A DNA stretch of 64,000 bases. Origin: Paludisphaera borealis (GTDB lineage Bacteria > Planctomycetota > Planctomycetia > Isosphaerales > Isosphaeraceae). Position numbers and translations under genes: made by a program. The DNA lies in NCBI RefSeq assembly GCF_001956985.1, contig NZ_CP019082.1, positions 5,952,001-6,016,000 of the forward strand, given 5' to 3'. This document shows positions 26,896-48,108 of the stretch, one piece after another. A model generated the notes under the pieces. The model made no database searches. It saw only the letters and a list, made by a program, of their open reading frames with translations, and was not told the origin of the DNA. Position 1 is the stretch's first letter. Every line of letters starts with the position of its first letter.

Positions 26896-26911
26896 GTCAG
26901 GAACTCCAGGG

Positions 26912-28144: not shown

Positions 28145-28197
28145 GTCGTCTCTCCTCGGCCCGCGATCCAGACAGGTTTTGCGATTGGGTTGCATGC

Positions 28198-28283
28198 GTA
28201 GGGGCGTCCCTTGTGGGCGCCCGATCGGCGTCGGCAACTGCGGCGGCCTTGGCGACTCGGGCACCCACAAGGGGCGCCCCTAC
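28198..28283. repeat. Dispersed palindromic repeat, family B
   Basis: Arms 28198-28224 and 28257-28283 pair over 27 bases with two mismatches, around a 32-base loop; core GGGGCGCCCCTAC. It lies in the gap between oleD and the Tm-1-like gene and could act as the terminator of the pfa-ole transcript. The sequence resembles dispersed intergenic repeats in planctomycete genomes (recollection, not searched). Confidence 0.8.
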
Positions 28284-28338
28284 AACGAAACGGACTTCCT
28301 GCGCACACCGGGGGTCTGCAACCCAAAAGCATACCGCG

Positions 28339-29358
28339 CTAAATCTCGGTCTGGTCCTGTTGTAGCGAGGCGGCCAACCTGCGCAGGCCTTCCTCGATGC
28401 TGACGTGAGGAGCATAGCCGAGATCCCGGCGCGCGGCGTCGAGATTGTACCAGTGCGCCGTCGAAAGCTCATGGGCGAGGAACCGCGTCATCCGCGGTTC
28501 CCCGGAGAGCCTTAGCACGCCGTAGCAGACCTCGAAGGCTCGGCCGAGGGCGACGGCCAGCGACTTCGGCACGGTGCGCTTCACCGGCGGCAGATGGGCG
28601 ATATCGAGAAACCGGTTGATCATGTCCCAGACGGGCACGGGCTGGCCCTGGGCGATGAAGTAGACCTTGCCGGCGACCGCAGAGCCGACGTCCAGGCGGT
28701 CGGCGGCCAGAATGTGGGCTGAAGCGGCGTTATCGATGTACGTCAGATCGATCAACGGGTTGCGACGCCCGATCCGGAACAACCGCCGCGCCCGGGCTCG
28801 CGCGAAGACCCGGGGCAGGATGTTGTTGTCTCCCGGCCCCCAGATCAGGTGCGGCCGGAGGACGACGGTAGCCAGCGCGCCGTCGTTCGCCTTGCGAACC
28901 AGCTTCTCGGCCTCGGCCTTCGTGCGGGGGTACGCCGCTTCGTAGTGGTCGGGATAGGGGATCGACTCGTCGACGCCTTCGAGATCCTTCCCGCTGAAGA
29001 TCACGCTGGGGGAACTCGTGTAGATCAGCTTGCGGACGCCGTGAGCACGGCAGGCGTCGACGACGTTCTTGGTGCCCTGCACGTTCGTCCGCCGGTACTC
29101 GTGCTCGGGCCCCCAGAGGCCCGCCTTGGCCGCGACGTGAAAGACCGCGTCGCAACCTTCGACCGCGCGGGCGACGACACCGGCGTCGGCGATGTCCCCC
29201 TGAATCTGCTCGGCCCCGAGCGCGTCGAGCTGAGAATAGTGACGCCGGGTCAGGGTGCGGACGGCCTGCCCCTTGGCGCGGAGCAGGGCCACGACGGCCG
29301 ATCCCAGGAATCCGCCGCCTCCGGTCACGAGCACGGGGCGGGACGGGTCGAGCGTCAT
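28339..29358 (-). CDS. oleD: 2-alkyl-3-oxoalkanoate reductase OleD
   Basis: NADPH-dependent reductase that turns the OleA product, a 2-alkyl-3-ketoacid, into the 3-hydroxyacid. Extended short-chain dehydrogenase of 339 residues: nucleotide loop VLVTGGGGFLGSAV, catalytic YxxxK in AYPRTKAEAEKL, catalytic Ser region IYTSSPSVIF, and WGPGDNNILP. The call over generic epimerases rests on context: it is last in the unit oleA-oleB-oleC-oleD, and its ATG overlaps the oleC stop by four bases (ATGA), a sign of coupling. Confidence 0.9.
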   Translation of the reverse strand: MTLDPSRPVLVTGGGGFLGSAVVALLRAKGQAVRTLTRRHYSQLDALGAEQIQGDIADAGVVARAVEGCDAVFHVAAKAGLWGPEHEYRRTNVQGTKNVVDACRAHGVRKLIYTSSPSVIFSGKDLEGVDESIPYPDHYEAAYPRTKAEAEKLVRKANDGALATVVLRPHLIWGPGDNNILPRVFARARARRLFRIGRRNPLIDLTYIDNAASAHILAADRLDVGSAVAGKVYFIAQGQPVPVWDMINRFLDIAHLPPVKRTVPKSLAVALGRAFEVCYGVLRLSGEPRMTRFLAHELSTAHWYNLDAARRDLGYAPHVSIEEGLRRLAASLQQDQTEI

Positions 29359-31097
29359 GGCCGTTTCCTCGCGGCCCAGACCGCCAGTTTTTCGCGGAAG
29401 ATCTTCGAGTTATGGCGAATGTCGACGGGGAACGCGCGGTGGAACACGATCGTTGTGATCCGCCTTGTGTGATCGAACTTCGACCCGAGTTCCAGCAGCT
29501 CGCCCCGGACCCTTTCGCGGTCGCGGCGGCCGAGCCGGCGGACCGGCTCGACGCACAGGACCGGGATTCTTCCTTCGGGGCGATCGACGCCGACCAGCGC
29601 GGTCCGCGCGACTTCAGGATGAGCGTTGAACACGCCCTCGCAGCAGATCGTGTGCAGCGTCGCGTCCTTCAGCACGACCCGGTGCGACTTCCGGCCGCAG
29701 AACCAGATCCGGCCGCGATCGTCGAGGTAGCCGACGTCCCCCATCCGGTGATAGAAGGTTTCGTTCGCCGAGTCGATGATCTTCGCGAGCGCCGTGGCTT
29801 CGGGCCGCCCGTAGTACTCGCGCGTGACGACCGAACCGGAGACGATCACCTCGCCGACGTCACCGTCCGGGACGACCAGATCATCGCTCCACTCGGGGAT
29901 CGGCTGGTCGCTGATCCGGATGATCTTGACCGTGATGTCGCCGACCGGACGGCCGACGCAGACGCCTCGGCCGAGGTCCGTCTGGCGACCCGTCTCCCCG
30001 AGGATCTCGGCGCTGCCGATCGAGGCGACGGGCAACGACTCGGTAGCTCCGTACGGCGTGAAGATCTCGGCGGGAGGTTCGAGCAGCCGGGCGAAGGTTT
30101 CGAGCACCCGGGGCGACGCGGGCGCACCGGCCGTGACCACGCGGCGGAGGGTCGGGATTTTCAGGCCCTTGGCCACGCCGGCCGGGCCGACGCGCTTCAG
30201 AAGCGCCGGCGAGCCGAACATGTTGGTCGGGCCGAAATCGTCGATCGCCTCGAACAGCTTCTCCGGGGCGACCCGGGCGGGGCGCGTGGGGTCCATTTGC
30301 GGGACGATCGACGTCATCCCGAGCGCCGGGGCGAAGAGCGCAAACAAGGGAAACGTGCAGAGGTCGATCTCGCCCGGCTCGATCTGGTAGAGCGATCGGA
30401 AGCACTCGATCTGCGCGAGGAAGATCGCGTGGGTGTAGATGGCCCCCTTGGGAGGGCCCGTGCTGCCGCTGGTGAAGAGGATCGCCGCCGGCTCGTCGGG
30501 CTTCACGCCCCGGAAGACCGGCGTCGCAATCCGCCCGCTCGCGATCGCCTCGCGACCTCGCCGGCGAATCGTGTCGAGCGAGGCCGTCGCCAGGCTGTTC
30601 AGCCACTTGCCCTGGCCCGCCAGGATGACGCGCCGGACGGTGTCGCGGCCCCAACCGAGGACGCGTCGGGCGACGATCGCCGGGGCGATGCCGATGAAGG
30701 TTTCCGGCTCGGCCTCGTCGAGGCAGCGTCCCAGGCTCTTGAGCCCGATCCCCGGATCGATCAGCACCGGGACGACGCCCGCCTTGAAGAGGCCGAAGAC
30801 CAGCGCGAAGAAGTCGAGCCCCGGCCGGACCATCACCGCGGCGCGGCTGCCTCGGGGAACGGCCTCCTCGATCAGACCGGCGGCGATCGCGTCGCTGTCG
30901 CGGTCGAGCTGGCCGTACGTGAAGTGGCCGTAACGGATCTGGCCCGCCGCCCCGCGCCCCTGGGGCACGACGACCGCCGCCCGGTGCGGCTGGCGGTTCG
31001 CCATGTCGTGCAGGTGCTGGGCGATGTTGGCCAGGTGATCGTCGGCGATGGGAACGGACGCGGGGGCGTCCTCGACGTCTTGACTCGGCGTGTTCAT
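29355..31097 (-). CDS. oleC: Beta-lactone synthetase OleC
   Basis: ATP-dependent enzyme of the acyl-CoA synthetase (ANL) superfamily. In the Ole pathway it closes 2-alkyl-3-hydroxyacids to beta-lactones, releasing AMP. The 580-residue length is normal. Motifs: AILFTSGSTGPPKGAIYTH (P-loop), EIFTPYGATESLPVA (A5), FYHRMGDVGYLDDRGRIWFC (A7/A8) and a C-terminal SKIFREKLAVW, which lies near the usual catalytic Lys. Alone it could be a fatty-acyl ligase; its position between OleB and OleD settles the role. Seven bases separate it from oleB. Confidence 0.92.
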   Translation of the reverse strand: MNTPSQDVEDAPASVPIADDHLANIAQHLHDMANRQPHRAAVVVPQGRGAAGQIRYGHFTYGQLDRDSDAIAAGLIEEAVPRGSRAAVMVRPGLDFFALVFGLFKAGVVPVLIDPGIGLKSLGRCLDEAEPETFIGIAPAIVARRVLGWGRDTVRRVILAGQGKWLNSLATASLDTIRRRGREAIASGRIATPVFRGVKPDEPAAILFTSGSTGPPKGAIYTHAIFLAQIECFRSLYQIEPGEIDLCTFPLFALFAPALGMTSIVPQMDPTRPARVAPEKLFEAIDDFGPTNMFGSPALLKRVGPAGVAKGLKIPTLRRVVTAGAPASPRVLETFARLLEPPAEIFTPYGATESLPVASIGSAEILGETGRQTDLGRGVCVGRPVGDITVKIIRISDQPIPEWSDDLVVPDGDVGEVIVSGSVVTREYYGRPEATALAKIIDSANETFYHRMGDVGYLDDRGRIWFCGRKSHRVVLKDATLHTICCEGVFNAHPEVARTALVGVDRPEGRIPVLCVEPVRRLGRRDRERVRGELLELGSKFDHTRRITTIVFHRAFPVDIRHNSKIFREKLAVWAARKRP

Positions 31098-31104
31098 GTC
31101 CGGG

Positions 31105-32055
31105 TCAACCCTCGGCGGCCTGCGTCGCGGTCACGGACGACGGCGACTCGGGCGCGTCCAGGAAGCTCGCGATCTGCGGAATCAAGGTCTCGGCTTCGTC
31201 TTCGAGGATGTAATGACCCGCATCGGGGAACTTGTGGACCTCGGCGAGCGGGAAGCGTCGCTCCCATTCTCTGAGGAACGGCGCGTCGAACACGAAGTCC
31301 TTCATCCCCCAGCCGATGAACATGGGGACCGAGCGGAGCAAGTGCAACCGGCTCTCGACCCAGCTCACCAGGTCGTAGCACCGGTCGTACGGGCGAAGCG
31401 GGATGTCCTGGACGAACCGATGAACCGCGATCCGGTTCGCCCACGAATCGTAAGGGGCGACGTAGGCGTCGCGGAGCGATTTCGGCATCCGCTCCTTGGT
31501 GCAGCCGATGACCGCCGTCCCGCGAGCAAAGGCGTTGAGCCCCCGGACCGCGAGCGACCCGAGCGCCGGGTTGCGGCAGACGCCGAGGGACCAGGGGAAC
31601 CGCTTGTCCGTCGGCATGTGGAACGCCGCCGTGTTGAGCACGACCAGGCGGGCGATCCGCTCGGGCCGGCGAGCAGCGTACGTCAACCCGATCATGCCCC
31701 CCCAGTCGTGGACCACGAGCGTCACGTCGCGGACGATCCCCAGGTGGTCGAGCAGGCGTTCCAGGTCGTCGACGCGGCTTTCGAGCGTGTAGCGATACCG
31801 GTCGTCGCCGGGCTTGTCGGAGAGCCCGCAGCCGATGTGGTCGGGGACGATCGTGCGGTGCGAGGGGCTAAGCGCCTCGACCAGGCGACGATAGTAGAAC
31901 GACCACGTCGGATTGCCGTGGACCATGACGACCGGGCGGCCTTCGCCTTCGTCCAGGTAATGATAGCGCAGGCCGTCGCGATCGAAGTCGCGGCCCGGGT
32001 GGGCGGCCAGGAATTCCCCGAGTTCGGGGCTGGAGTTGCGTGTCGTTCCCGTCAT
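31105..32055 (-). CDS. oleB: Beta-lactone decarboxylase OleB
   Basis: Alpha/beta-hydrolase of the haloalkane-dehalogenase-like branch that decarboxylates the OleC beta-lactone to a cis-olefin. The oxyanion motif is VMVHGNPTWSF (about 44-53), the nucleophile is Asp117 in VVHDWGGMIG, the acid is Asp253 in GWGMKDFVF, and the base is His281 in DAGHYILED. An Asp nucleophile distinguishes OleB from Ser lipases. Start: ATG 32055, only 5 bases after the oleA stop; the longer frame to 32622 overlaps oleA. It is a separate gene, not the OleBC fusion seen in some bacteria. Confidence 0.93.
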   Translation of the reverse strand: MTGTTRNSSPELGEFLAAHPGRDFDRDGLRYHYLDEGEGRPVVMVHGNPTWSFYYRRLVEALSPSHRTIVPDHIGCGLSDKPGDDRYRYTLESRVDDLERLLDHLGIVRDVTLVVHDWGGMIGLTYAARRPERIARLVVLNTAAFHMPTDKRFPWSLGVCRNPALGSLAVRGLNAFARGTAVIGCTKERMPKSLRDAYVAPYDSWANRIAVHRFVQDIPLRPYDRCYDLVSWVESRLHLLRSVPMFIGWGMKDFVFDAPFLREWERRFPLAEVHKFPDAGHYILEDEAETLIPQIASFLDAPESPSSVTATQAAEG

Positions 32056-32060
32056 CCTGC

Positions 32061-33113
32061 TTACCACTCCAGGCCCAGCATCAGGCAGTTCAGGCCGCTG
32101 CCGATTCCGAGGAACGCGACCCGGTCGCCAGGGTGGAGAACCTGCCGGTCTTCGGCCAGCGCGGCGGTCAGCGGCAATGAGACGGTTCCCATGTTGCCGA
32201 GATACGGAAACGTCGAATAATCCTTCTCGATCGGCAGTCCCAGCGATCGCAAGATCGTGTCGCGATGCGACCCGCCGACCTGGTGGCAGACGACCTTGTC
32301 GACCTGCTCCTTGACCCAGCCCAGCTTGCGGAGGAACGACTGCCAGGTCTTCACCCCAAGTTCGACGCCGTGAGTCAGCACGGCCGTGGCGTCGGTCGAC
32401 GTGAACTGTTGCAGCGGACCGTTCGTCAGCGGCTTCACCGCCTCGACGCCCCAGCGGCAGAGGTCGTGGAACTGGGGCGCCGACTGGACCGCGCCGCCGA
32501 GCAGCCGCCGCCGCTTGGTTCGCGAAAGCTGGCCGTCGGTCAGCAGGACCGCGACCGCCCCGGAACCCCCGGTCAGCGTGGCCAGCGCCTCTTTGAAGAA
32601 ATCCATGCTCGGGTTCTGGCACATCCGCTCGATCATGACGTTGTTGATCTCGCGGGCCGTCTCGCAGGCGACGACCATCCCCGTGCGGATCTGGCCGAGC
32701 TCGATCCGGTTGGCGACGTCGATCATGCCGCTGAGCACGCCCAGGCAGGCGTTGCTCAGGTCGTGAATCACGGCCCCCGGACTGATCGCCAGCTCCGACG
32801 CGATCCGGCAGGCCGTCGCGGGCTCGAAGTACTCGCGGCAGACGCCCCCGTAAACCAGGGCTTCGACCTGGTCGGCGGGAATGTCGGCGGCCTCAAGGGC
32901 GCGGCGTGCGGCGACGATCGCGCCGTCGGAGATCCGATGCCCTTCCTCCCACCAACGCCGCTCGATGATCCCCGTCAGGGCTTCGAGCTGGCCGGGGATC
33001 AGGTGCAAAGCCTCATACACCGGCGCAAGCCGCTCCTCCAGTTCGGAGGAAGAGACGACCACCGGAGCGACCTCGTAGCCGAACGCCTCAATATAGACGT
33101 TCTCGTATTTCAT
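32061..33113 (-). CDS. oleA: Head-to-head acyl condensation thiolase OleA
   Basis: Joins two fatty acyl thioesters by a decarboxylation-free Claisen condensation to a 2-alkyl-3-ketoacid, the first step of long-chain olefin synthesis. Thiolase fold of 349 residues; by position it matches the known OleA residues: nucleophile Cys123 in HDLSNACLGV, base Glu97 in GVCREYFEP, His277 in VVCHQVGGSH and Asn307 in YLGNMGTVS. The Glu-Cys spacing (26) and His-Asn spacing (30) equal those of the Xanthomonas enzyme. ATG 33113 was taken; in-frame ATG 33122 adds three residues. It starts 53 bases after pfaC. Confidence 0.94.
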   Translation of the reverse strand: MKYENVYIEAFGYEVAPVVVSSSELEERLAPVYEALHLIPGQLEALTGIIERRWWEEGHRISDGAIVAARRALEAADIPADQVEALVYGGVCREYFEPATACRIASELAISPGAVIHDLSNACLGVLSGMIDVANRIELGQIRTGMVVACETAREINNVMIERMCQNPSMDFFKEALATLTGGSGAVAVLLTDGQLSRTKRRRLLGGAVQSAPQFHDLCRWGVEAVKPLTNGPLQQFTSTDATAVLTHGVELGVKTWQSFLRKLGWVKEQVDKVVCHQVGGSHRDTILRSLGLPIEKDYSTFPYLGNMGTVSLPLTAALAEDRQVLHPGDRVAFLGIGSGLNCLMLGLEW

Positions 33114-33166
33114 CGATCCCATGGGCCCCGCCGGTCCTGGATGCCGTCGCCCTCGACCGACCGCGT

Positions 33167-36100
33167 CTAGCGCGATCGCAGGCCGAGCGTGAAACCGCTC
33201 ATCTGGTAGATGACCTTGCCGTCGACCCGCAACAAGCCGTCGGCGGTGATGAGCCGTCGATCGTCGTCGACGGCGGTGATCACCGCCTGCGTCGTCACGC
33301 GGCGATTGGTGGACGCGATCTGCCCACGGTAGGTCCAGCCGTGCTCGACGCCCAGCCCGGGCGAATCGAACACCGCGTCCGGGCCCGCGTCCCAACGCTC
33401 GGCAGCAACGACTTTAAGGAGTTGCTGCAACGATTCCAACCCCAATGAACCGGGCCAGACCGGGTCGCCGAGGAAATGAGCCTGGAAGAACCAGGCCCCG
33501 GGATCGACGGCACCGCTCCCCTCGATGAAACCGAGTCCGTTCGGACCTCCTTGCGACACGAACGCGTCGACCTGCTCGACCATCCGCCATTTCCGGTCGG
33601 GAAACGGCGCGGCGTCCGGCAACGGGAACGACCGCGAAATCCGCCGCTCGTCGTCGGTCAGCTCGTAAGGAACCGCCTCGCGGACGCCGACCTGATCGAT
33701 CAACGCGTCGGGGTGGAAAAAGCCGAAGTAGGTGTCGCCGTCGAACACCAGGCCCGAGGCGTCGTGGATCGACATCTCGAAATGATGCAGCAGCATCCCC
33801 GCCGAGCGGTTGATCTTCACGACGCGGACGCTCGACCGGAGCGTTCCGGAGTTCCGATCGACGATCCGATGCTGCCGGCCTCGGCCGCCGAGGTTGCGGT
33901 ACTTGAGCGGGCCGTCGCTCGTCAGGGCCGAGCCCATGAAGGCCGAAACGAAGCCGCACGCCTGAAGAACCGCTTCGAGCAGCACCGCGTACGGGACGTG
34001 CGGCTGACGGTCCGAGTCGAAGTACCAGGCGTCGGGAGGGACCGTATATTCCGCTTCGGCGGACGCGCCGACGGCTTGAACGCAGAGGTCGCCTTCGAGG
34101 ATCGTCACCTGATCCAAGAATTGATACGGCGGCCGAGGCAGCCGGGCGATGAACCGCTCGGAGTCGAACGGCCGAAACCGCTCGCCGAAGCAGTCCGACG
34201 GCGCGCCCGTCGAGAAGGCGAGGATCTGGTCGAGCGAATAAACGAGCTTCGACGTCCGGGCGCCTTCCCAGAGCCGTTCCAGCTCCTCGCGGGTCGTCCC
34301 CGAGAGCCGCAGCCCCATGTCGGTGAATTCGACGATCGGCTTGCCGTCGGCGAACATCAGGGCGTCGGCGATCGCGTACGGTTCGGGGCCGTAGCCCAGC
34401 TCCTTGATCGTGATCTCGTACGTCACGGTCCGGGTCGTCGCGACGACCTGGCCGCGGCATTGCAGGCGATTGGCGACGCCCGTCTGGGGCTCGTAGCGGA
34501 CCGAGTCGGCCGCGCCCACCCAGCCTAGCCGCATCAAGAAGATCCGCAGCGTGTGCTGGCAGCACTCGTACATGAGCGTGCCGGGCATCACCCGATCGTC
34601 GACGAAGTGGCAGACCATGAACCAGTCGTCGGGATGGATGTCGGCCTCGGCCCGGATCAGGCCCAGCCCGAACCGGCCTCCCCGAGGATCGAGCGTCTCG
34701 ACCCGATGGACGAGCGTCATCCGGCCCCCGGGCAACGGCAGCGGATCGGCCATATCGATCTGATCGAACGGCGACCCGAAGGCCGCGTGCAGGTCCCCCG
34801 CGCGAAGGGCGTCAACCTGCCGGGCGTCGAGCGTCGTCGGTGTGGACGGCGTCAAGTCGCGCCAGTCGTCGGGCCGCACGCCGGGGCGCGGCTTGGCGTC
34901 GAGCGGTCGCGGCACGATCCCCTTGCCGGCGGCGAGGGCCGCTTCCGAGAAGAACCCCGCGCAGCCGTCGCGCATGGTCATCAGGGGCTCGCCGTTCACC
35001 GTGGCGTCGTACCCGAACCGGAACAGGTGGGTCTCGCCCTGCCGGAAGAAGCTCGAAATCACGATGTCGTAGCGGATCACGTCGCCCGGCGCCGGCAAGT
35101 CGCGATGGAACGTCACCGTGGCGTCGAGCAGACGGTAGACCGCCAGCCCCTTGGTGATCAGGTCGATGCCGAGATAACCCGCGAGAAACAGGTCGGCCTG
35201 ACCCGACTCGATGGCCACGCAAGGCGCGATCCGGCCGCCGTCGAGATACCAGGCGCCGGGCAGAACGTCGTGCTCCGTGACCACCCGGCCGCTCGTGAGC
35301 GAGCCCAGCCGCCCCTCGATGGTCAGTATGCGGTCGACCAGCATCAACGGCTCGTCCGGCAACCGGACCCGCGTCGGATGCGAATCGATCTCGGCGTACG
35401 CGGGCCCGAGCACCGCGCCGATCGATCCGATCGCGAATTCCAGGCACTGCGCGCGGTCGAGGGCGACGGGTTCGAACGTGATCGCGGGCGACGGTGTCGA
35501 GACGGCCGGCGGTGCTTCGTTTCTATGCATTTCCAGGACAGGCGCGGCCGTCACAGGAAGTTCGCCGGCGTCGAGCAGGTCGAATTCGAGGGCGATCTGT
35601 CGCCCCATCGATTCGGAAAACCCCTGCGACAACCGCAGGAAGGCTTCATGCGCCCGACTCGCGGCGAGCTGGGTTTCCAGGAATTGACGGAGCAAGGGGG
35701 ATGACGATTCGCTCGGGCCTTCGGCCGAGAGGTTGAGCGTCGGTTGGTGAGCGATCGGATTGGACATGCTTGATAAATCATCCAGGACCGCGGCGGGCGA
35801 ATCAGGCGCAAGAAAAACATCGACGAGGCCGAGCGCCGGCTCGGGATCGATCGGCCGGTCGGGTTCCGCCACCCGCTCGGCGGGGACGAGTCGCGGCGCC
35901 GAAGGCAGCCCGACCACCGCGCGGCCGCGATCGATCACGATCTCACGGCGATCGCCGGGGGCGTCGTCGGCTTGACCTTCAAGGGCTCCGTCGTAAAGGA
36001 ATCCCAGGTCGACCGGAACCCCGGCGGCGATCAGTTCGCCCAGGGCTCGCAAGACCGCGTCGAGGGCGTCCCCCTCGGCGGGACAGGCCGAGACGGCCAG

Positions 36101-39100
36101 GTGGGGACGATCGCCGAGGATGCGGCCGATCAGTCGCGTGCACGACGAGCCCGGCCCCATTTCGAGGAAGACGCGAACCCCGTCGGCGTAGGCTTTCTCG
36201 ACCACGCGCGGGAAGTCGATCACATGAGCGGCCTGGGCCGTGATCGCGGCGGCGGCGGTCTCGTGATCGGGCGTGTAGGCCGTCCCCCAGACGCCGCTGT
36301 AGAATGTCACGCCGTCCACCGGCGCGGTCTTCAGCTCGTGGAGCGCCCGGTACTCGGACTCGACGGCCCGGCCGACCTCGCAATGGACGGTGCTCACCAG
36401 CGGGAGCGGCAGGAACGGGCAACGCAGGGTTTGCAACACCCCGCGCACCGCGTCGCCCTGGCCGCCGATCACCGACTCGTCGACCGCGTTGCGGATCAAA
36501 ACGTAGACGCGGTCGACGCCGGCGATCGCCGCGTCGACGTCGTCGCCCGAGCGCGGGACGATCCCCGCAACCCAGTCGACCGGCTCCGAGTCGGCCAGTC
36601 CCCACGCGCGGCGGGCGGTCGAGCAGGGGCCCGCCAGGTCGGTGGCGAACAGCGGCGAGGCCATGAGACGCTTCAGCATGTCGTCGCGGTCGGCCCACGC
36701 GCCGAGCGCGACGAGTGCCGCCGACTCGCCCAGGCTGTAACCCACGGCCGCGACGGGCTTCACGCCTAGCTTCTGAAAGAGAGCCGTCGTCAGCGAACCG
36801 ACCGAGATCTGGCCGAGGATCGCGGGGCGGTGGTCGTCGATTCGAGTCGGCAGCGGACCGTTCCACCAGGCATCGGGCGCGAACTGGTCGCGGACCGTCG
36901 CGTAACGACTCTCCAGCTCGCCCAGCAGTTCCGGCCAGAGCGCCGAGAGCTGGCTCCCCATGCCGGCGAACACGTTGCCGAGCCCCGGATACGTCAGCGC
37001 GACTTGCGGCGGGCCGTCCCAGTCGAGCCTCGGCGGGAAGAACTCGACTCCCTCGATCGGTCGATCGTCGCGGACGGCTCGAATCGCCCGCGCGAGCGAC
37101 GTGGCGTCGGCGGCGATCAGCGCCAGTGCGGGCGTTTCCGCTTCGTTGAGACCGGCTTGATGCCAGAGCCGCGCGAGGGTTTCGATGGGCCGCGACGGGT
37201 CTTCGGCGGCCAGGCTCTCAAGCTTCGCCAGACGCGCGGCGCGTTGGGTCGCGTCACGCCCGCCAACCGCGAAAATCGCCCGGGGATGGGGGCCGAGCGA
37301 CCGGGTTCGAGTGGGCCGCGACGGGTCGTCGACGCCTTCGAGGACGATCGTCTGATCGAGCCCGCCGAGCCCTTGCTGACGGACCACGGCGACGCGCGGG
37401 CCGTCTTCGCGGTTCTGGAGCCAGTAACGGGGACCGATCGCGTCTGAAGGCGGAAGGATCGCCCGGTCGAGCGCGACGGCCGCCGCCGCGACGGCCGCCA
37501 GTCCCTCGGCCGCGCCCGTCCAGCCGATCGAGCGACGGACCGAATCCAGCGAGACGCCGACAGCTCGCGGATCGCGGATCACCGCGTAGATTCGATCGCC
37601 GTCGCGGACGGCGTCGGCATGGCGCTTGAGGACGAGGGCCGTGGCCCCCTCGCCGGGCGTGAAGGGTTCCGACGCGCCCACGAGCCTGCCGGCGGCGCGT
37701 GCCGTCCGTTCGTCGCCCGCCAGGTCGACGGCGCCGACGACGGCCGAATCGACCTCGCCCCGGGCGAGCCAATCGGCCGCCACGCGGAGGGCTTCCAGGC
37801 CCGAGTTCTCGTCGCACGAGACCGTGAAGCTCGGCCCGCCGATCCGGAATTCGCGGGCGATCCGGCTGGCTACCAGACCTCCCAATGATCCCATCGTCCG
37901 GTTGGGCGAGAGCGCGGGGTGGATCGCATCGCAGGCTTCGACGATCCAGTCGTCTAGCTCGCGCGGGGAGAGATTCCAGCCGAGTTCCGCGTTCCACTCC
38001 GGCGCCCGAGCGGTCAGCCACCAGCGGAGTTGAAAGTTCGTGGTGTTCAGGTCGAGGCCCAAACCGACCACGACGCAGGTTCGCAGGCCGGTATCGGACG
38101 ACCAGCGCGCGTCGTCGATCGCCTCGGCCGCCGTCTGAAGCATGAGCGACTGCTGGAGAAGCATCGACTCCAGTTCGAGAGGCGGTATCCGAAATCGTCC
38201 CACCCGGACCCGGAGGCCGTCGAGCAGGTGTCCCGCCTTCGAATCAGTCTCGCCGCCGAGCACGCGATGTTGATAAGCCGGCAGCCCGCGCCAGGGGCCG
38301 AAATGGGCCGAGACGCCGACGATCGCCACCGGCTTGCTCGGCGAGGCGGGCGCTTTGACTGTCGACTCAATCGCAACCGGCTGGCCGGTCCATTCTTCGA
38401 TCAGCATGTGAGCGTTGATCCCGCCGAACCCGAACCCGCTGATCGCCGCGCGTCGAGGGCGGCCGGACGGGGCCGGCGGCCACGGCTCGGCGGTCTTGAG
38501 GACGCGGAACGGGCTCTCGTCCAGTCCGAGTCGCGGCGACGTGTTCGTGTGGTTGGCCGTCGGCGGCAGCACTTTGTGCTCGATCGCCAGCAGCACCTTC
38601 AGCAGCCCCGCCGCGCCGGCCGCCGTGAGCATGTGACCGACGTTCGACTTCACCGAGCCGATCACGCAGCGGCCCGGGATCTCGATGGAATGATCCGACC
38701 ACAGGGCCTTGAGGCTCTCGACTTCGACCGCGTCGCCGACGGGCGTGCCGGTCGCGTGGCACTCAACGAGGTCGACGTCGTCGGGCGACCATCCCGCCTG
38801 GTCGTAGGCCGCGCGCATGGCGCGCAACTGACCTTCGCTGCTGGGGGCGAGCAGGTCGCCGTGGAGGTCGTTCGAGAGGCCGATCCCGCGAATGACGCCG
38901 TGGATCACGTCGCCTTGCCGGATGGCGTCATCGAGCCGTTTGAGGACGAAGAGGCCCGCGCCCTCGCCGACGATCAGGCCGTCGCCTTCGTCGTCGAACG
39001 GGGCCGACCGGCCGCGCGGCGAGAGCGCGCGAAGCTGGGAAAAGCCCATCTGGGTGTAGAGTGCGTCGGGACGCGAGACGCCCCCCGCGAGCATCGCGTC

Positions 39101-39733: not shown

Positions 39734-39735
39734 CG

Positions 39736-42700
39736 TCAGTTCGTAGCCGTCTCAAGATGCGTGAGGCGATTGCGGCGGAACGCCAGGTTGAGCGAGGCGT
39801 CGATCACGCACTCGTACGACTCCATCCGCGCGACCAGCTCGTCGCGCGAGTCGAGGAACTCCACGTCGGCCACGGCCCGACGATCGCTCGACTGCCGGAC
39901 CGTCGCCACGACCCGGACGCCGTCGTCCGGGAACCGACGGCGGAATTGCCGATACGACCCGATCGCCGTCGGCAGCGAGCCCGAGCCCGTCCGCTCAAGG
40001 CACCAGAGGATCATCAACTGGAACGCCGCGTCGATCGCCAGCGGGTCGGTGAGCCACTGCTGACGCAACGGCTTGGCGATCCAAGAAGCCGGCGCGGGGG
40101 CGGTCGAGACCCAGGCGGCGATCGTCTGTTCGTCGCAGCCCTCGACCCGCTCGATCGCCTGCATGGCCGGGCCGTGGAACAGGCTTCGCTGATAGATCTC
40201 GTCACGATCGGCGGCGAGCGGAAGCAGGTTCCCCTCGGTCAGCGTGCGACGGCCTTCGACGTGCCGTTCGGCCAGGTTCACCACGGCCCGAGCGTGGACG
40301 ATCTCGCGGCCGCCGTCGAGTGAGCCACGCATCTCGACCGGGACGGCCAGAGCCGAACCTCGGCGATCTCCCTTGCCGGCGTGCAGCGCCACCGTCACCG
40401 GCTTGTGGTCGCGAAGAACCACCCCCTTGAACAGCCGCAGATCGTCGAGACCCTCGACGACCAGGCCGGGATGCCGGTGGAGAGCCGCCTCGCCCAGCCA
40501 TTCCATGATCAAGGCCATCGGCAGGACGGCGTGACCGTCGATGACGTGCGATTTGAGCACCGGCAGAGCGTGGACGTCGACGATGCGGTCGAAGGCCGGG
40601 CGCAGGTCGTCGTTGGCGGAACGCTCGGGTTCCGGCGTCGGCGTCGGAGTCGGCTCGCCGGTTTGCGGAGGATCGGCGAGGACGACGACTTCCACCGGAT
40701 TCTCGCGCGACTCCTGGAGTTCACGGACGACGAGGCGGGCGCCGTCGGCGAGCGGGATCAGCCCGACGCCTTCGCTCTCGAACAACGGCCGGAGGGCGGA
40801 GGTCACCATGCCGCCGTCCCAGGGGCCCCAGTTGAACGAGACGACGCGACAGTCGGGAAGCCGACGGGCCTGAACCTGGGCCCACTTGTTGAGCACCTCG
40901 TTGGCCGCCGCGTAAGCGACCTGACCGGTTCGGCCGAACCGCGCGGTGGACGACGAGAACAGGCCGAGGACGCGGAGCGCGGTCGGCTCGATCGCCTCGA
41001 AAACGGCGTTCAGGCCGTCGATCTTGGTGTCGTAAACCAGGGCGAACTGGTCGTCGGTCTGGTCGTCGATTCGACGGTCGGCCAGCACCCCGGCGGCGTG
41101 GATCAGGCCGCGAACCGGCCCGTGGACGGCCTGGACCTGATCGATGAGCGCCCGCACGGCCGCGCGGTCGCGGACGTCGACCGACTGGTACATCGCCTTG
41201 CCACCAGCCCGGTTGATCCGTTCGAGGTTCCGGCGAATCTCGCGCTGGGCCATGATCTGCCGGCCGCGCTCGTTGAGCTTCTGGGGCGTCATCGGCTCGG
41301 TCGCATGGAGCCGGAGCGCCGAGCGAACGGCGACCTCATCGTCGAGAGCGGCCAGCCACGCGGGTTCGGAATCAGGAACCGGCGTCCGGCCCAGCAAGAG
41401 CAGCCGAGGACCGAACTCGGCGGCGAGCGCGACGGCCGCCTCGGCGGTGATCCCCCGGGCGCCCCCGGTGATGACGACCAGATCCCCCGGATCGACGACC
41501 GGCCGGCGGCGATGATTGCCCGACAGCCATTCCACGCGGTCGAGCGCGACCTGAATCGTCCGGCTCGCCGACAGACCGACCTCGGCGGGACCCGATCGGA
41601 TCAGCTCCTCGACTATCCTCTGCGCCGAGTCATCGACGTTAGACGCGTCTCGGTCCAGGTCGACGGCCTTGCAATGCACCTCGGGCCATTCCCAGCTCGC
41701 CGTCTTGGCGAGCCCGGCGAGACCGCCGGACGTCGGTTCGACCGACGCCCCGAGCCCTTCGAGACCGAACGCGCCGTCGAGCCGCGAGACCGTCAAGAGA
41801 GCCGCCGCGCCTCCCTGGGCCGACTGGCCTCGCAGCATCGGGCCCACCGCGCGGATCAGCCGGAACGCGTTCTTGACGAACGAGTCGTCGGCGCCCAAGG
41901 CCGGCGCGACCACGATCAGACCGCAGGGCCGTTGACCATTCGTCGCCGCGACTGGATCGGACGTCGAGATCACCCGGCCGCGAAGGCCCCGCTCGACTAG
42001 GGCCGTTTCGAGGGCCGCCGTGAGCGATGATCCGTCGTCCGTGATCCAGACTTCCCCCCCCGGCGTCAGGCGGATCGTCTCGCGAGTGTCGGGAGCGTCG
42101 AGCGGACGAGGACGGGGCGTCAGGCGATCGAGGCGGACCGCCGGCCGCGTCTCTCGTTGAACGACGGGCTCGGGACGCGCGACAGGCTGGGCTTGTTCGG
42201 CCGCGCCGCCGTCAAGGAGGGCGACGATGTCGCGGAGGGACCGGATCGTTCCGAGCTGGTCGGGCTGGACGGCCGGGGCGTGGGGGAGCCGGTCCTGGAG
42301 CGCGGAGAGGATCTCGACGCGTTTGATGGAGTCGATGCCGAGGTCGGCGTCGAGCTGCATGTCGAGTTCGAGCATGTCGGCGGGATAGCCGGTCTTCTCG
42401 GCCACCGTCTCCAGCAGCACCTCGGCCACCTTGGCGTCGCCGTTGACGCTGACGGCCGGCGCCGGCTGCGGCGTCGCGATCGTTCCGCCTCCCACATTGA
42501 GCAGGGCGACGATGTCGCGGAGGGATCGGATCGTTCCGAGCTGGTCGGGCTGGACGGCCGGGGCGTGGGGGAGCCGGTCCTGGAGCGCGGAGAGGATCTC
42601 GACGCGTTTGATGGAGTCGATGCCGAGGTCGGCGTCGAGCTGCATGTCGAGCTCGAGCATGTCGGCGGGATAGCCGGTCTTCTCGGCCACCGTCTCCAGC

Positions 42701-45700
42701 AACACCTCGGCCACCTTGGCGTCGCCGTTGACGCTGACGGCCGGCGCCGGCTGCGGCGTCGCGATCGTTCCGCCTCCCACATTGAGCAGGGCGACGATGT
42801 CACGGAGGGATCGGATCGTTCCGAGCTGGTCGGGCTGGACGGCCGGGGCGTGGGGGAGCCGGTCCTGGAGCGCGGAGAGGATCTCGACGCGTTTGATGGA
42901 GTCGATGCCGAGGTCGGCGTCGAGCTGCATGTCGAGCTCGAGCATGTCGGCGGGATAGCCGGTCTTCTCGGCCACCGTCTCCAGCAACACCTTTGCCGTT
43001 TCCGAGACGTTCGACACGGGGGCGGGCGGGGCTTCGACGTGTCGGCCGTTGGTGGCCGGCGCCGAGACCTTGACCGGAGCCGGGGCCGGAGGGGCGACCG
43101 GGGCAGGTGGGGGCGTCACGGCTTTGGGAGCCGGCGGCTTGGCTGGCAGGCTGGCGGGCTGGACGGCGGCGGGTTGCGAAACCGGCGCGGCGGGACGAGG
43201 CGCGACGTCGCCGGCCAGCCGCAATTGCTGTTCGAGGAGCGTCTGGAAGGTCCGCTGGGTCGCTTCCTGGCCTTCGAGAAACTGCTGATGGAGCTGCGCC
43301 GTCTGCTGGGCGAGTTGCTGGAGGGCGAGCAGGTGGTCGTGCGTCTGCTGGAAGACCGGGGCCAGGTTCGAAGCGGACGTCGTTCGCGGCGCCGGGAGTC
43401 GAGAAGGGGCGGGAGCGTGCGCGTGGCCGTTCGAGGAGGCGAGGGTTTGGTTCTGAGAGGAATTCATGGTCCGCTCGACAAGGGCTTTTTGCTGGTTTGT
43501 CCGCGTCGGCGACGGGGCGACGAGGCCGGCGGTGGAAGTCGTGGGCGATGCGATCGGCCGCGGCGGGGCTTCGGCTTTGACAGCCGGTTTCGCGAGGGCC
43601 GGAGTCGCGGGTCGGGGTTTCGAGACAGGGCGAGGATGAGCGCCGCAGACCGGGACGGTCAGGCCGCTTCGCTTGGTCGCCGGGGGCGGCGGCTGGAAGC
43701 CGAAATCCCATTGCGGGAGATCGAGCGCATAGCCCGACGCGGCAAGGCTCGCGAGGACCGTCGCGAGGCCGACGAGGTCGCCGGCCTCGCCGCGCGCCGA
43801 ATCGACGGCGAGGGCGGCATGGGCTTTCCCTTCAAGGATCGACGCCACCAGGCCCGACAGCTTGGCGTCCGGCCCGACCTCGACGAACGTCCGGGCGCCG
43901 TCGCGGTGCATGGCCTCGACCATGGCCGTGAACTCGACCGGCTGGGCAAGCTGGTCGGCCAGCAACTCACGAGCGCCATCGGCCGAAGCGGGGTAAGGCT
44001 CGCCGGTCGCATTCGCGAAGACCGGGATCGTCCCCGGCTTCACCTCGACGCCGCCGAGCGCGTCGAGCAGCGGCCCGCGCGCCTTGGCGACGAACCGGCT
44101 GTGGAAGGCCGCCGAGACCGGCAGCCGCCTCGCCGTGATCTTCTCGGTCGCGAGCAGGGCTTCCGCTCGCTCGATCTCGGCCTTGGGGCCGGAAAGAACG
44201 CATTGACGAGGCGCGTTCTTGTTGGCAACGACGACGTCGAGCGCATGCCGCCGCAAGAATTCGGCGAGTTGGTCGGCCGGCGCGAACGTCGCAAGCATGG
44301 CGCCGGAATCTTTGTCGCCGGCGCAATCGGCCATGAGAGCGCCGCGCTCGTTCGCCAGGATGGCGAGAGCGCGAGCGTCGATCCTTGCCGCCGCGTGCAG
44401 CGCGGTCAACTCGCCGAAGCTGTGGCCGCCGACCATGTCGGGGCGAAGGCCAAAATCACCGAGGATCTGAAGCAGCCCGAGCGAGACCGCGCCGATCGCC
44501 GGCTGGGCGGATCGGGTGTCGCGGAGGGCCTCGTCCTGCCGTCGGCGCTCGTCGTCCGAGAAGACGGACGGCGGATAGATCCGATCGCTCAGCCGCGCGC
44601 CGATCGACGTCGTCGCCGCGTCGGCCGCTTCGAGGGCCGAGAGCATGCGCGGAAACCGGCAGGCCAGGTCGCGAAGCATCCCGACGTACTGAGAGCCCTG
44701 ACCGGGGAAGAGGAAGGCCAGCCGTCCCGGTGCGTCCCCCTCGCCGAAGAAGACGCGTCGCGCCCTGACCGTTTTCGTGGCGGCGGCCGACGATTTCAGG
44801 CGGTCGCGGGCCTCCTCGATCAAGCCCGGCAGGTTCTCCTCGCCGCGTTGCGCAACGATCAGGAGCCGCACTCGATGAGTCGACCGAAACGCCGATCGGC
44901 TCCGAGCGGCCTCGGCCCGAACCTCGGGCCACGACGTTTTATCGGACCAGCGCGGCAGCAGGCTGTCGAGAGCCTTCGGGTCGTCGGCCGAATAGGCCAG
45001 GAGCTGGACGTCGCCGCCCCAGTCGACGGCCGCGCGATCGGGCTCGACCTCTTCGAGCACGCAGTGGAAATTGCTGCCGCCGAAGCCGAACGCGCTGACG
45101 GCGGCGCGGCGAGGATGCCTTCCGGTCGAAACCCAGGGGCGATTGTCGACGTTGAGATAGAACGGCGATCCGTCCCTCGCCAACGGGTCGATGGGCCGGT
45201 CGATCTTGATCGTGGGGGGCAAGACCTTGTGATGAAGGGCCAGGGCGGCCTTGATCAGCCCCGCCGCGCCGGCCGCCGCCTTGGCGTGGCCGATCTGCGA
45301 CTTGACCGAGCCCAGAGCGCACCACGGACCGTCCGGCCGGGCGCCTCGGTAGACCTCTTCGAGGGCCTCGACCTCGACGCCGTCGCCGACCCGGGTGCCG
45401 GTGCCGTGGGCCTCGATCAGCTCGATCGAGTCGGGAGTGACGCCCGCTTGCTCATAAGCCTGGCGGAGCGCCTTGACCTGCCCGCTCGCCACTGGGGCGT
45501 AGATCGACTGCCCCTTGCCGTCGCTGGAAGCCCCCATCGACCGGATCACCGCGTAAATCCGATCACCGTCGCGCTTGGCGTCGTCCAGCCGCTTGAGCAC
45601 GAGGACGCCCAGGCCCTCGCCCAGAATCGTGCCGTCGCCCGACGCGGCGAACGGCCGCGCGTCGCCGCTCGGCGACAGGGCCGGCGTCTTGCTGAAGCAC

Positions 45701-46494
45701 ATGTACATGAAGATGTCGTTGAACGTGTCGAGCCCGCCCGAGAGCGCGACGTCGCAGCGGCCGGAGGCCAGCTCGTGCATCGCCAGGTTCACCGCGCCCA
45801 ACGAACTGGCGCACGCGGCGTCGACCACGCAGTTGGCCCCCCCCAGGTCGAGCCGGTTGGCGATCCGGCCGGCCGCCACGTTGCCCAGGAGCCCGGGGAA
45901 CGAGTTCTCCTGCCAGCCGACGTACGAATCGGAGATCCGCTGGACGACGTCGGCGGCGGTTTCCGCGTCGACGCCCGCCTCGTCGAGCGCCCGTCGCCAG
46001 ATCGGGTGGCCCAGTCGCGCGCCCAGGGGGATCACCAGCTCAAGGGTTCCGGTGACGCCGAGGATCACGCTGACCCGGTCGCGGGCGTAATCGCGGCCCG
46101 CGCCGTAGCCGGCGTCTTCGAGGGCCTTCTTCGCGACCAGCAGCCCGAGAAGCTGGGTCGTGTCGGTCGCTTCCACGGTATGTGGGGCGATCCCGAAGTC
46201 GAGCAGCGGAAAGTCGACCGGCGAGAGGAATCCGCCTCGATGCGCGTACGTCCGATCCGCCGCTTTGGGATCCTGGTCGAAGTAATCCTCGGGCCGCCAG
46301 TGAGTGGGCGGAACCTCGGTGATCGCGTCCAGTCGGCCGCGAATGTTGGACCAGTAGCGCTCGAGGCCGTCGGCCATCGGGAACAGGCAGCCCATCCCGA
46401 TGATGGCCACCGGAACGGGTCGCGAGGAGTCGGCCTGAGTCAAGTCACTTCCCTTTCGAGCGTCGATGCGGGCTGGGTGGGGGCTCTCGGTCAT
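39736..46494 (-). CDS. pfaA: PfaA-type PUFA synthase (KS-AT-ACPx3-KR-DH)
   Basis: A 2252-residue iterative synthase. The KS (about 25-480) has Cys228 in DAACASSLG, His363 in EAHGTGTRVG and His403 in QIGHAKAAAG. The AT (about 585-900) carries FLFPGQGSQYVGM and GHSFGE with Ser692. A Pro/Ala linker follows (about 960-1160), then three carrier domains with phosphopantetheine serines 1199, 1294 and 1389 in DSIKR. The ketoreductase (about 1660-1900) has VVITGGARGITAEAA and Tyr in AYAAANE, and a C-terminal dehydratase-like hotdog (about 1930-2230) has SHVIDGHAVLP. ATG 46494 has no clear ribosome-binding site; TTG 46443 after AAGGGAAG is an alternative. The carrier Ser residues need a PPTase, which is not in the window. 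Confidence 0.92.
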   Translation of the reverse strand: MTESPHPARIDARKGSDLTQADSSRPVPVAIIGMGCLFPMADGLERYWSNIRGRLDAITEVPPTHWRPEDYFDQDPKAADRTYAHRGGFLSPVDFPLLDFGIAPHTVEATDTTQLLGLLVAKKALEDAGYGAGRDYARDRVSVILGVTGTLELVIPLGARLGHPIWRRALDEAGVDAETAADVVQRISDSYVGWQENSFPGLLGNVAAGRIANRLDLGGANCVVDAACASSLGAVNLAMHELASGRCDVALSGGLDTFNDIFMYMCFSKTPALSPSGDARPFAASGDGTILGEGLGVLVLKRLDDAKRDGDRIYAVIRSMGASSDGKGQSIYAPVASGQVKALRQAYEQAGVTPDSIELIEAHGTGTRVGDGVEVEALEEVYRGARPDGPWCALGSVKSQIGHAKAAAGAAGLIKAALALHHKVLPPTIKIDRPIDPLARDGSPFYLNVDNRPWVSTGRHPRRAAVSAFGFGGSNFHCVLEEVEPDRAAVDWGGDVQLLAYSADDPKALDSLLPRWSDKTSWPEVRAEAARSRSAFRSTHRVRLLIVAQRGEENLPGLIEEARDRLKSSAAATKTVRARRVFFGEGDAPGRLAFLFPGQGSQYVGMLRDLACRFPRMLSALEAADAATTSIGARLSDRIYPPSVFSDDERRRQDEALRDTRSAQPAIGAVSLGLLQILGDFGLRPDMVGGHSFGELTALHAAARIDARALAILANERGALMADCAGDKDSGAMLATFAPADQLAEFLRRHALDVVVANKNAPRQCVLSGPKAEIERAEALLATEKITARRLPVSAAFHSRFVAKARGPLLDALGGVEVKPGTIPVFANATGEPYPASADGARELLADQLAQPVEFTAMVEAMHRDGARTFVEVGPDAKLSGLVASILEGKAHAALAVDSARGEAGDLVGLATVLASLAASGYALDLPQWDFGFQPPPPATKRSGLTVPVCGAHPRPVSKPRPATPALAKPAVKAEAPPRPIASPTTSTAGLVAPSPTRTNQQKALVERTMNSSQNQTLASSNGHAHAPAPSRLPAPRTTSASNLAPVFQQTHDHLLALQQLAQQTAQLHQQFLEGQEATQRTFQTLLEQQLRLAGDVAPRPAAPVSQPAAVQPASLPAKPPAPKAVTPPPAPVAPPAPAPVKVSAPATNGRHVEAPPAPVSNVSETAKVLLETVAEKTGYPADMLELDMQLDADLGIDSIKRVEILSALQDRLPHAPAVQPDQLGTIRSLRDIVALLNVGGGTIATPQPAPAVSVNGDAKVAEVLLETVAEKTGYPADMLELDMQLDADLGIDSIKRVEILSALQDRLPHAPAVQPDQLGTIRSLRDIVALLNVGGGTIATPQPAPAVSVNGDAKVAEVLLETVAEKTGYPADMLELDMQLDADLGIDSIKRVEILSALQDRLPHAPAVQPDQLGTIRSLRDIVALLDGGAAEQAQPVARPEPVVQRETRPAVRLDRLTPRPRPLDAPDTRETIRLTPGGEVWITDDGSSLTAALETALVERGLRGRVISTSDPVAATNGQRPCGLIVVAPALGADDSFVKNAFRLIRAVGPMLRGQSAQGGAAALLTVSRLDGAFGLEGLGASVEPTSGGLAGLAKTASWEWPEVHCKAVDLDRDASNVDDSAQRIVEELIRSGPAEVGLSASRTIQVALDRVEWLSGNHRRRPVVDPGDLVVITGGARGITAEAAVALAAEFGPRLLLLGRTPVPDSEPAWLAALDDEVAVRSALRLHATEPMTPQKLNERGRQIMAQREIRRNLERINRAGGKAMYQSVDVRDRAAVRALIDQVQAVHGPVRGLIHAAGVLADRRIDDQTDDQFALVYDTKIDGLNAVFEAIEPTALRVLGLFSSSTARFGRTGQVAYAAANEVLNKWAQVQARRLPDCRVVSFNWGPWDGGMVTSALRPLFESEGVGLIPLADGARLVVRELQESRENPVEVVVLADPPQTGEPTPTPTPEPERSANDDLRPAFDRIVDVHALPVLKSHVIDGHAVLPMALIMEWLGEAALHRHPGLVVEGLDDLRLFKGVVLRDHKPVTVALHAGKGDRRGSALAVPVEMRGSLDGGREIVHARAVVNLAERHVEGRRTLTEGNLLPLAADRDEIYQRSLFHGPAMQAIERVEGCDEQTIAAWVSTAPAPASWIAKPLRQQWLTDPLAIDAAFQLMILWCLERTGSGSLPTAIGSYRQFRRRFPDDGVRVVATVRQSSDRRAVADVEFLDSRDELVARMESYECVIDASLNLAFRRNRLTHLETATN
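42214..42994. repeat. Three near-identical tandem carrier-domain repeats inside pfaA
   Basis: The three ACP domains sit on a 285-base (95-codon) unit. The phosphopantetheine serine codons lie at 42328, 42613 and 42898, exactly 285 bases apart. The ACP cores and the linkers between them differ by only a handful of bases, mostly synonymous, far less than the surrounding gene would predict, so the copies are recent or kept alike by gene conversion. Confidence 0.95.
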
Positions 46495-46530
46495 CTGGGC
46501 GACACAACGGCTGTAGGTGGAGCAGCTATG

Positions 46531-48108
46531 TTAAGGTCCCACGTTCCGGTTCTCAATCTCTTCACGCTGCAAGGGCGTCAATCGGGGGACGCCGGACGGC
46601 GGCGCGACGCCCTGGAAGGCGGCGAAACGAGCACGAAGCAACACGGCCGCCCCGTAAAGAATGTTGAGCGACACCGTCGCCGCTCGTCGGTTCTCGGGAC
46701 GTTCCAGGAACGAACCGCGAACCCAATCGTTGAAGGCCGCCATCGCGGGGCCGCACCAGATCTGATAGTCGAGGGTCCGGGTCGGCTCGCCGACGTTGGC
46801 CCAGTTCGACGATTGGCCCAGATACCAGCGGAACACCAGGGCCATCTTGTGCTTGGGGTCGGCCTCGGCCCGAACGATCTGGGCCGGGTCGCGGCGCGCG
46901 AAGAACGCGCGGGTCTGGTCCCAGACCTCCGCCACCGGCGCTCGCAGGATCGTCTTCTCAAGGCTCTGGCGGTCCGCCTCGGGGATCTGTTCGAGGCTGT
47001 TATAAGCCCGATAGTACTCGTAGAGCTTCGCCCCCCGCATCGCGAACATGGTTCCTCGCTTGAGGACCTGAACCTTCACTCCCATCTCGAACATGTCGGC
47101 CGCGGGCGCCATGGCGACGTCGGCCTGCTGGGCCTGGGCGAGCAACGCGCGGACGGCTTCGGAGGTTCCGGCCTCGACGCATGACTGGTTCACCGAGCCG
47201 GTCACCAGATACGACGCCCCCATCGCGAGGGCCCCAGCGGCGGCCCAAGGGGTCGAGATCCCTCCCGCCGCGCCGATCCGCAACGGACGGTCGTACCGAT
47301 GCTCGGCGGCGAGCCGGTCGCGAAGGGCGATCATGGTCGGCAGCAGCACGACCAGCGGCTGGTTGTCGGTATGGCCCCCGGAGTCGGCCTCGGCGGTCAG
47401 GTCCTCCGCCATCGGGATCGTCGCGGCCATCGCCGCTTGATCGGCGGTGATCGTCCCTTGCTCGACCAGCGTTCTCAGGTAGCGTTCCGGCGGCGGCGAC
47501 AGGAATTTGCGGGCGACCTCGACGCGCGACGCCTTGGCGATGATCCGGTTGGGGGCGACCACCCGCCCCTGTTCATCGCGATGAACGCCGGCCACGCGAT
47601 ACCGGACGACCGGCAACGTCAGGTCGAGGAACGCCGAAGCCTCCACCAGCCGCACCCCGCGGCGCAGGTACAGGTCGACGACCGCCGATTCCAATGCCCC
47701 GTCCTGCGGACTATGAATCAGGTTGAAGCCGTAAGGTGCTTTGTTTCCTAAACTACTCTGAACTCGCTGCACGGCGGCGTCGACGACTTCGAGCGCCAGG
47801 CCCGCCGCTCCGAAAATTCCAAGCATTCCCGCCCGGCTCATGGCCTCGACGAGTTCCACGGAGGCGATCCCGTTCGCCATGGCACCGGCCACGCATGCGT
47901 AGCGGACGCCGTGCGTGGATCGAAACGAGGGCTCGCCGAGTTTTTCCAGCGGGCAAGCGGGGATGAAGACCGATCGAGACCGGTCGGAGGGAGCCGGCGC
48001 GGGGTCGAATCGAACCGAGCCATCGCCGTCGACGGCGGTCCACAGCCCACGGCCGACCTGGCCGAGCGCATCTTCCCACCGGCTGCATTCTGTCACGTCA
48101 AGCTGCAC
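46531..48108 (-). CDS. pfaD: PfaD-type enoyl reductase
   Basis: Stand-alone FMN-dependent enoyl reductase of PUFA synthases, with a nitronate-monooxygenase-like TIM barrel. Landmarks: YGFNLIHSPQDGALE, EADSGGHTDNQPLVVLLP (His in the flavin site), RIGAAGGISTPWAAAGAL, GASYLVTGSVNQSCVEAGTS, MFEMGVKVQVLKRGTMFA and MALVFRWYLGQSSNWAN near the C-terminus. The GTG at 48108 was chosen because GGAGCAGGA precedes it, giving 525 residues; a GTG at 48198 would add 30 unconserved Arg-rich residues. It is the first gene of the pfaDAC-oleABCD unit, 36 bases before pfaA. Confidence 0.92.
   Translation of the reverse strand: MQLDVTECSRWEDALGQVGRGLWTAVDGDGSVRFDPAPAPSDRSRSVFIPACPLEKLGEPSFRSTHGVRYACVAGAMANGIASVELVEAMSRAGMLGIFGAAGLALEVVDAAVQRVQSSLGNKAPYGFNLIHSPQDGALESAVVDLYLRRGVRLVEASAFLDLTLPVVRYRVAGVHRDEQGRVVAPNRIIAKASRVEVARKFLSPPPERYLRTLVEQGTITADQAAMAATIPMAEDLTAEADSGGHTDNQPLVVLLPTMIALRDRLAAEHRYDRPLRIGAAGGISTPWAAAGALAMGASYLVTGSVNQSCVEAGTSEAVRALLAQAQQADVAMAPAADMFEMGVKVQVLKRGTMFAMRGAKLYEYYRAYNSLEQIPEADRQSLEKTILRAPVAEVWDQTRAFFARRDPAQIVRAEADPKHKMALVFRWYLGQSSNWANVGEPTRTLDYQIWCGPAMAAFNDWVRGSFLERPENRRAATVSLNILYGAAVLLRARFAAFQGVAPPSGVPRLTPLQREEIENRNVGP

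Follow-up and report, generated by a model that had tools for sequence, protein, structure and literature searches.

The window analysed here, a stretch of 64,000 nucleotides from the genome of the wetland bacterium Paludisphaera borealis, carries seven consecutive minus-strand genes in the order pfaD-pfaA-pfaC-oleA-oleB-oleC-oleD. This order had been set out in an earlier sequence-only reading of the same DNA, and it was confirmed on re-examination, with all seven frames open, the gene ends as given there and the same spacings between successive genes (36, 2, 53, 5, 7 and -4 bases). The features are:

46531..48108, minus strand: pfaD, enoyl reductase, 525 aa (TIGR02814, 645 bits; GTG start at 48108)
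39736..46494, minus strand: pfaA, KS-MAT-ACPx3-KR-PS-DH, 2252 aa (TIGR02813, 1569 bits)
33167..39733, minus strand: pfaC, read as a pfaBC fusion, KS-CLF-AT-DH-DH, 2188 aa (Pfam/NCBIfam domain matches)
32061..33113, minus strand: oleA, head-to-head condensing thiolase, 350 aa (NF006720; residues aligned)
31105..32055, minus strand: oleB, alpha/beta-hydrolase, 316 aa, putative beta-lactone decarboxylase by position (family match and operon position)
29355..31097, minus strand: oleC, AMP-binding beta-lactone synthetase, 580 aa (two olefin beta-lactone synthetase models)
28339..29358, minus strand: oleD, 2-alkyl-3-oxoalkanoate reductase, 339 aa (NF042422)

A longer open frame for pfaD extends to 48198. 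Scans for promoter-like sites (2 found, 1.2 expected) and terminator-like sites (7 found, 9.2 expected) over positions 28000-47999, an interval that stops short of the region upstream of pfaD, were uninformative. Just past oleD and on the same strand lie a UPF0261 gene and a PEP-hydrolase-like gene (PF09370; window 26044-28144), both of which are also found downstream of oleD in five other loci (L047, L048, L004, L007 and L201). A SAM methyltransferase gene sits upstream of pfaD, again on the same strand (window 48481-49419), and keeps this place in four congeneric genomes (L046, L049, L202 and L203), with no match upstream of pfaD in L050, L052, L055 and L060.

The pfa genes have the composition of a Type I Pfa synthase, namely the PfaA domain set, a PfaBC fusion (KS, CLF, AT and two DH) and PfaD. 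PfaD and PfaA pass their NCBIfam models (cut-offs of 449 and 1010 bits, respectively), and Pfam and NCBIfam matches resolve PfaA into KS, MAT, three ACP, KR and a C-terminal PS-DH, with the carrier motif DLGIDSIKR at residues 1194, 1289 and 1384. The same libraries place two ketoacyl-synthase stretches, a PfaB-like region (residues 911-1249) and three FabA-like stretches in PfaC. The PfaB-like acyltransferase region precedes the dehydratases, the position expected of it, and scores below both the TIGR02816 cut-off (78 against 144 bits) and the Pfam cut-off (23.5 against 32.7 bits). Because this region lies inside PfaC, the gene is read as pfaBC and its predicted product joins PfaB and PfaC in one protein, the layout of the published Type I secondary lipid synthase. 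The active sites claimed for the synthase were recovered, with KS cysteine motifs in PfaA and PfaC, the PfaA acyltransferase serine and the three carrier-domain serines located by pattern, and the two dehydratase histidines readable as hot-dog HF...P motifs in PfaC. Within PfaA (window 42218-42992), carrier units 2 and 3 are identical at 281 of 285 bases, while unit 1 matches them at only 220 and 217 of 285; the near-identity of units 2 and 3 points to a recent duplication or conversion.

OleA passes NCBIfam NF006720 (474 bits, cut-off 285), and the catalytic set attributed to it (Cys123, Glu97, His277 and Asn307) aligns with that of the structurally solved Xanthomonas enzyme. In alignment, these residues are near-invariant across both of the OleA clades described below, with the Cys, Glu, His and Asn retained in 74, 74, 74 and 73 of the 74 OleAs of the Pfa-linked clade. 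OleB, OleC and OleD are all found together in the operon, each under its NCBIfam equivalog cut-off: OleB and OleD belong to the right families (haloalkane-dehalogenase model, 151 bits against 241; NF042422, 425 bits against 580) and OleC matches two models for olefin beta-lactone synthetases at 646 and 632 bits, neither reaching its cut-off (646 against 900 for the first). Such scores for OleB and OleC would fit an operon in which one of the two is inactive and the end product is a ketone or a beta-lactone, but no ole frame is broken, all four stand in order, and that order is kept in the five relatives listed below, making such an outcome highly improbable.

The sequence-only reading had also suggested a self-contained system, which is not quite right, as it holds no phosphopantetheinyl transferase and the candidates lie elsewhere in the genome. 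Three ACPS-family matches occur genome-wide and none in the window; the candidate is a stand-alone gene of 252 aa at about 3.136 Mb on contig C1, ~2.8 Mb from the operon, and the two other family members are elsewhere. A search with PF13279 for a PfaT-type (orf6) hot-dog thioesterase likewise returned four matches in the genome and none in the window. PfaE may be encoded away from the pfa cluster, and PfaT is unlinked to pfa in Shewanella and Psychromonas as well (PMC6463001). Other giant type I synthase frames are present in the P. borealis genome, at about 5.03-5.04 Mb and 0.49-0.50 Mb on contig C1, one of them separated by about 8 kb from a frame of 1478 aa that carries an ACPS domain.

Within the family Isosphaeraceae (37 genomes, completeness from 68%), 25 genomes have both pfaD and an oleA of the operon type, nine have neither and three are discordant. 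The sequence-only reading had proposed comparing genomes for how often oleA follows pfaC, and this comparison bore out the linkage: pfaC directly precedes 23 of the 27 family oleA genes (at most 124 bases between matches) and lies 3 kb from oleA in one more (G010), for a total of 24 of 27 linked, with no pfaC in the piece read for the remaining three. Linkage of OleA to pfaC in 24 of 37 family genomes argues that the arrangement is not due to chance. The complete seven-gene order occurs in five relatives (G001, G002, G006, G028 and G031), including the putative genomes of strain SH-PL62 (G002) and of Singulisphaera acidiphila (G031), the latter with an operon identical in gene order. A putative Isosphaera pallida genome (G024) has pfaD, pfaA, pfaC, oleA and oleB in order, but neither oleC nor oleD turned up in the roughly 6.8 kb past oleB, and at locus L010 oleB, oleC and oleD were not found within 21 kb around oleA. 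Besides its pfa-ole operon, G006 carries a second, divergent pfaD-pfaA-pfaC set (L056, C63; 54, 37 and 32% identity), for which the stretch read gave no ole match, and the PfaD match of G028 (C1:7485422-7486888) is listed with one in-frame TAG.

A wider search for OleA covered 59 relatives, 199 Planctomycetota (nine of them already among the relatives), 297 Desulfobacterota (phylum inferred, drawn around G059) and three genomes to which named loci belong. An OleA within the threshold (E at most 1e-30) was present in 142 genomes, for 115 of which the locus was fetched and used, and 27 were left out (G043, G044, G049, G051, G053, G054, G055, G057, G280, G362, G379, G392, G440, G445, G447, G457, G470, G472, G485, G487, G501, G505, G532, G539, G541, G542 and G545). 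A single branch (SH-aLRT 100, in a tree from a quick search under a plain model with no bootstrap and with long-branch warnings for rows including G360, G361, G374 and G519) divides the 115 OleAs into groups of 74 and 41, the same rows as were first separated at 47% identity to the OleA of the window. On one side of the branch pfaC lies upstream of oleA in 64 of 74, directly in 61 and at 2 to 6 kb in three (G010, G416 and G443), versus 0 of 41 on the other side, the latter figure resting on pieces of 5 to 20 kb. Ten of the 74 have no pfaC in the piece read (G009, G027, G036, G133, G140, G383, G406, G407, G426 and G435), an absence that is not proven for G036, where the piece ends 0.5 kb beyond oleA, or for G140 and G426, on contigs of 7 and 9 kb. 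Both searches contribute rows to each side of the split (59 and 15; 26 and 15), which indicates that linkage to pfaC tracks OleA ancestry more than taxonomy. Of the 13 Desulfobacterota OleAs with pfaC upstream, seven are nested among planctomycete rows and six form an adjacent group with one planctomycete.

The two clades also differ in sequence, with 20 alignment positions at which a residue is common in one clade (over about 85%) and rare in the other (under 20%). Within the Pfa-linked clade, tree distances between OleAs are correlated with those between the C-termini of the corresponding PfaC proteins (r = 0.717, 60 rows, 0 of 999 permutations as high). Run on 63 rows, the comparison returned an r of 0.34, which none of 999 permutations reached (the highest was 0.33), a lower value attributed to the three rows dropped between the two sets (G021, G034 and G059), which appear to carry the other DH copy. 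Such a correlation is what would be expected if the operon were inherited or transferred as a unit, with shared species history contributing. It could be argued that OleA draws on ordinary FAS II acyl chains, as the olefins of Xanthomonas and Stenotrophomonas do (PMC6463001), and that its nearness to pfa is mere genomic convenience; the separate clade of Pfa-linked OleAs with residues of its own and the divergence of OleA in step with PfaC both speak against this, and it is considered very unlikely. A 12-residue insertion was considered as a mark of the Pfa-linked OleAs and rejected, since stretch lengths overlap between the clades. The OleAs of G025, G038, G047 and G056 (L040-L043) are 386-397 aa long, with matches that break near residue 235, and four rows in their lineage, presumably these same four, show a stretch of 58 or 68 residues that in most rows spans 20 to 24.

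The second OleA lineage has neighbours of a different kind. Among its genomes with at least 10 kb read, phytoene-desaturase-like genes lie near OleA in 18 of 38 (17 of 37 excluding L157, the source of the query), 17 of the 18 also having a related ketosynthase, versus 0 of 27 genomes of the Pfa lineage with at least 10 kb read. In G206 (L157:2443-14187), a KS, two amine-oxidase-family genes, a KR and a FabI-like gene are followed two bases on by oleA and then oleB, oleC and oleD, and similar OleABCD neighbourhoods occur in L155, L158, L159, L161, L189 and others. In some genomes (e.g., G040 and G504) the desaturase-like genes are on the opposite strand or several kb off. In gene types, though without implying orthology, these loci recall the FAS II clusters with phytoene-dehydrogenase-like genes described for Desulfotalea psychrophila, Geobacter, Pelobacter carbinolicus and an anammox bacterium (PMC2649909). 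The likeness has its misfits, as the FabI of D. psychrophila is apart from its phytoene-dehydrogenase-like clusters (PMC2649909), and Geobacter has both such FAS II clusters and linked pfa and ole genes. Dehalogenase and AMP-binding are unmentioned in the available text of PMC2649909, as are oleA, OleABCD and olefin in that of PMC4790861. Desulfotalea psychrophila makes C31:8 and C31:9 without a PUFA-type polyketide synthase (PMC2649909), so that C31:9 alone is no proof of a Pfa source. Together, the gene contents on either side of the OleA split suggest two separate supply routes for head-to-head polyenes, and the desaturase-linked lineage may explain the C31:9 of Desulfotalea.

For P. borealis, gene content and order, the OleA catalytic residues, the conserved linkage and the correlated divergence of OleA and PfaC directly support a full Pfa synthase/OleABCD operon like that of Geobacter, which probably makes a long internal polyene, most likely C31:9. 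By analogy with published work on relatives, from which the enzyme steps and the direct hand-over from carriers are inferred, PfaA, the PfaBC fusion and PfaD would assemble, on the carrier domains of PfaA, a polyene acyl chain with methylene-interrupted double bonds and with a chain length in P. borealis probably near 16:4. OleA would then take two polyene chains straight from the carriers and join them head to head, OleD would reduce the OleA product, OleC would close the beta-lactone and OleB would remove CO2, leaving the internal polyene. Confidence in this scheme is slightly lowered by two linked loci where neither oleC nor oleD turned up next to oleB. The sequence-only reading had suggested that the synthase is wired to OleA, with a polyene olefin as its main output, and this fits the comparative evidence and the published relatives, for which both arrangement and function had already been described or proposed (PMC4882568, PMC3098273).

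Alternatively, the synthase could mainly make free or phospholipid PUFA (EPA-like), with the olefin as a side product, as in Shewanella. The Pfa synthases of Shewanella and Photobacterium do make EPA, and Photobacterium profundum SS9, with adjacent pfa and ole operons, makes EPA with polyene hydrocarbon undetectable (PMC6463001), so linkage of pfa and ole is no guarantee of a hydrocarbon product. Set against this are the co-occurrence of pfaD and oleA in the family and the roughly tenfold drop in EPA in E. coli on co-expression of OleA, whether active or inactive, from which the authors of PMC6463001 infer direct contact of OleA with the Pfa carrier domains; a mainly PUFA-producing synthase is accordingly judged unlikely. 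In further support of a polyene hydrocarbon as the product, the Shewanella pealeana pfa operon expressed with oleA in an E. coli fadD mutant yields a 31:8 ketone (PMC6463001), and C31:8 and C31:9 have been reported for planctomycetes, with the descriptions of Schlesneria paludicola and Singulisphaera acidiphila among those cited. A broader scenario, offered tentatively, sees in the Pfa-linked OleA lineage a specialised thiolase fed by carrier proteins, one that moved across phyla together with its synthase. Within the family the synthase would exist only to supply OleA and make hydrocarbon and no PUFA, and the second OleA lineage may be wired in parallel to a FAS II cluster that is phytoene-desaturase-like and related to the anammox ladderane candidates.

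The genome of P. borealis PX4 was previously reported to contain type I PKS clusters identified by antiSMASH, with closest homologues for clusters 1, 2 and 4 in S. acidiphila, ‘Solibacter usitatus’, and Geobacter daltonii FRC-32 (PMC5352709), and one of these three is probably the pfa-ole operon. In its available text, PMC5352709 gives no product for these clusters and mentions none of hydrocarbon, olefin, polyunsaturated or PUFA, terms that are also unmentioned in the available text of two papers on planctomycete metabolites (PMC12078418, PMC10896814). No publication linking the planctomycete operon to its product was found in the open-access literature searched, the coverage of which is incomplete. 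What is new is the extent of pfaC-oleA linkage in the family, the OleA split across two phyla and the correlation of OleA and PfaC distances. P. borealis is a planctomycete with a finished genome and a tight candidate polyene-hydrocarbon operon that is widespread in its family, making the role of C31:9 beyond the marine gammaproteobacteria testable.

Among the closest known systems is that of Shewanella, its pfa and ole genes presumably lying at separate loci with pfaB as a separate gene. The enzymes are the same, with a 31:9 hydrocarbon formed by OleA acting on Pfa acyl chains, and Shewanella differs in also making EPA (PMC6463001). The Type I secondary lipid synthases of Shulse and Allen (2011), whose clusters were proposed to feed olefin synthesis, share with the P. 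borealis operon the PfaBC fusion, a distribution among planctomycetes and deltaproteobacteria and the proposed olefin link (PMC3098273); their planctomycete example is Gemmata obscuriglobus, and domain order was compared with their Type I from the text description. Another close match is Geobacter bemidjiensis, in which pfaD, A, B, C, oleA, B, C, D and pfaE are described in tandem (PMC4882568). The cluster of its strain Bem has the same genes in the same order as P. borealis and a known product, the polyene C31:9 (PMC4882568), whereas in P. borealis pfaB and pfaC form one gene and no pfaE is present in the operon, a difference to be read with the caveat that the pfaB and pfaC of G. bemidjiensis are listed apart in the review PMC4882568 yet are placed under the fusion-bearing Type I in PMC3098273. 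Against this background, the P. borealis operon looks like a well-preserved further example of a system whose gene order and likely product are already known from another bacterium.
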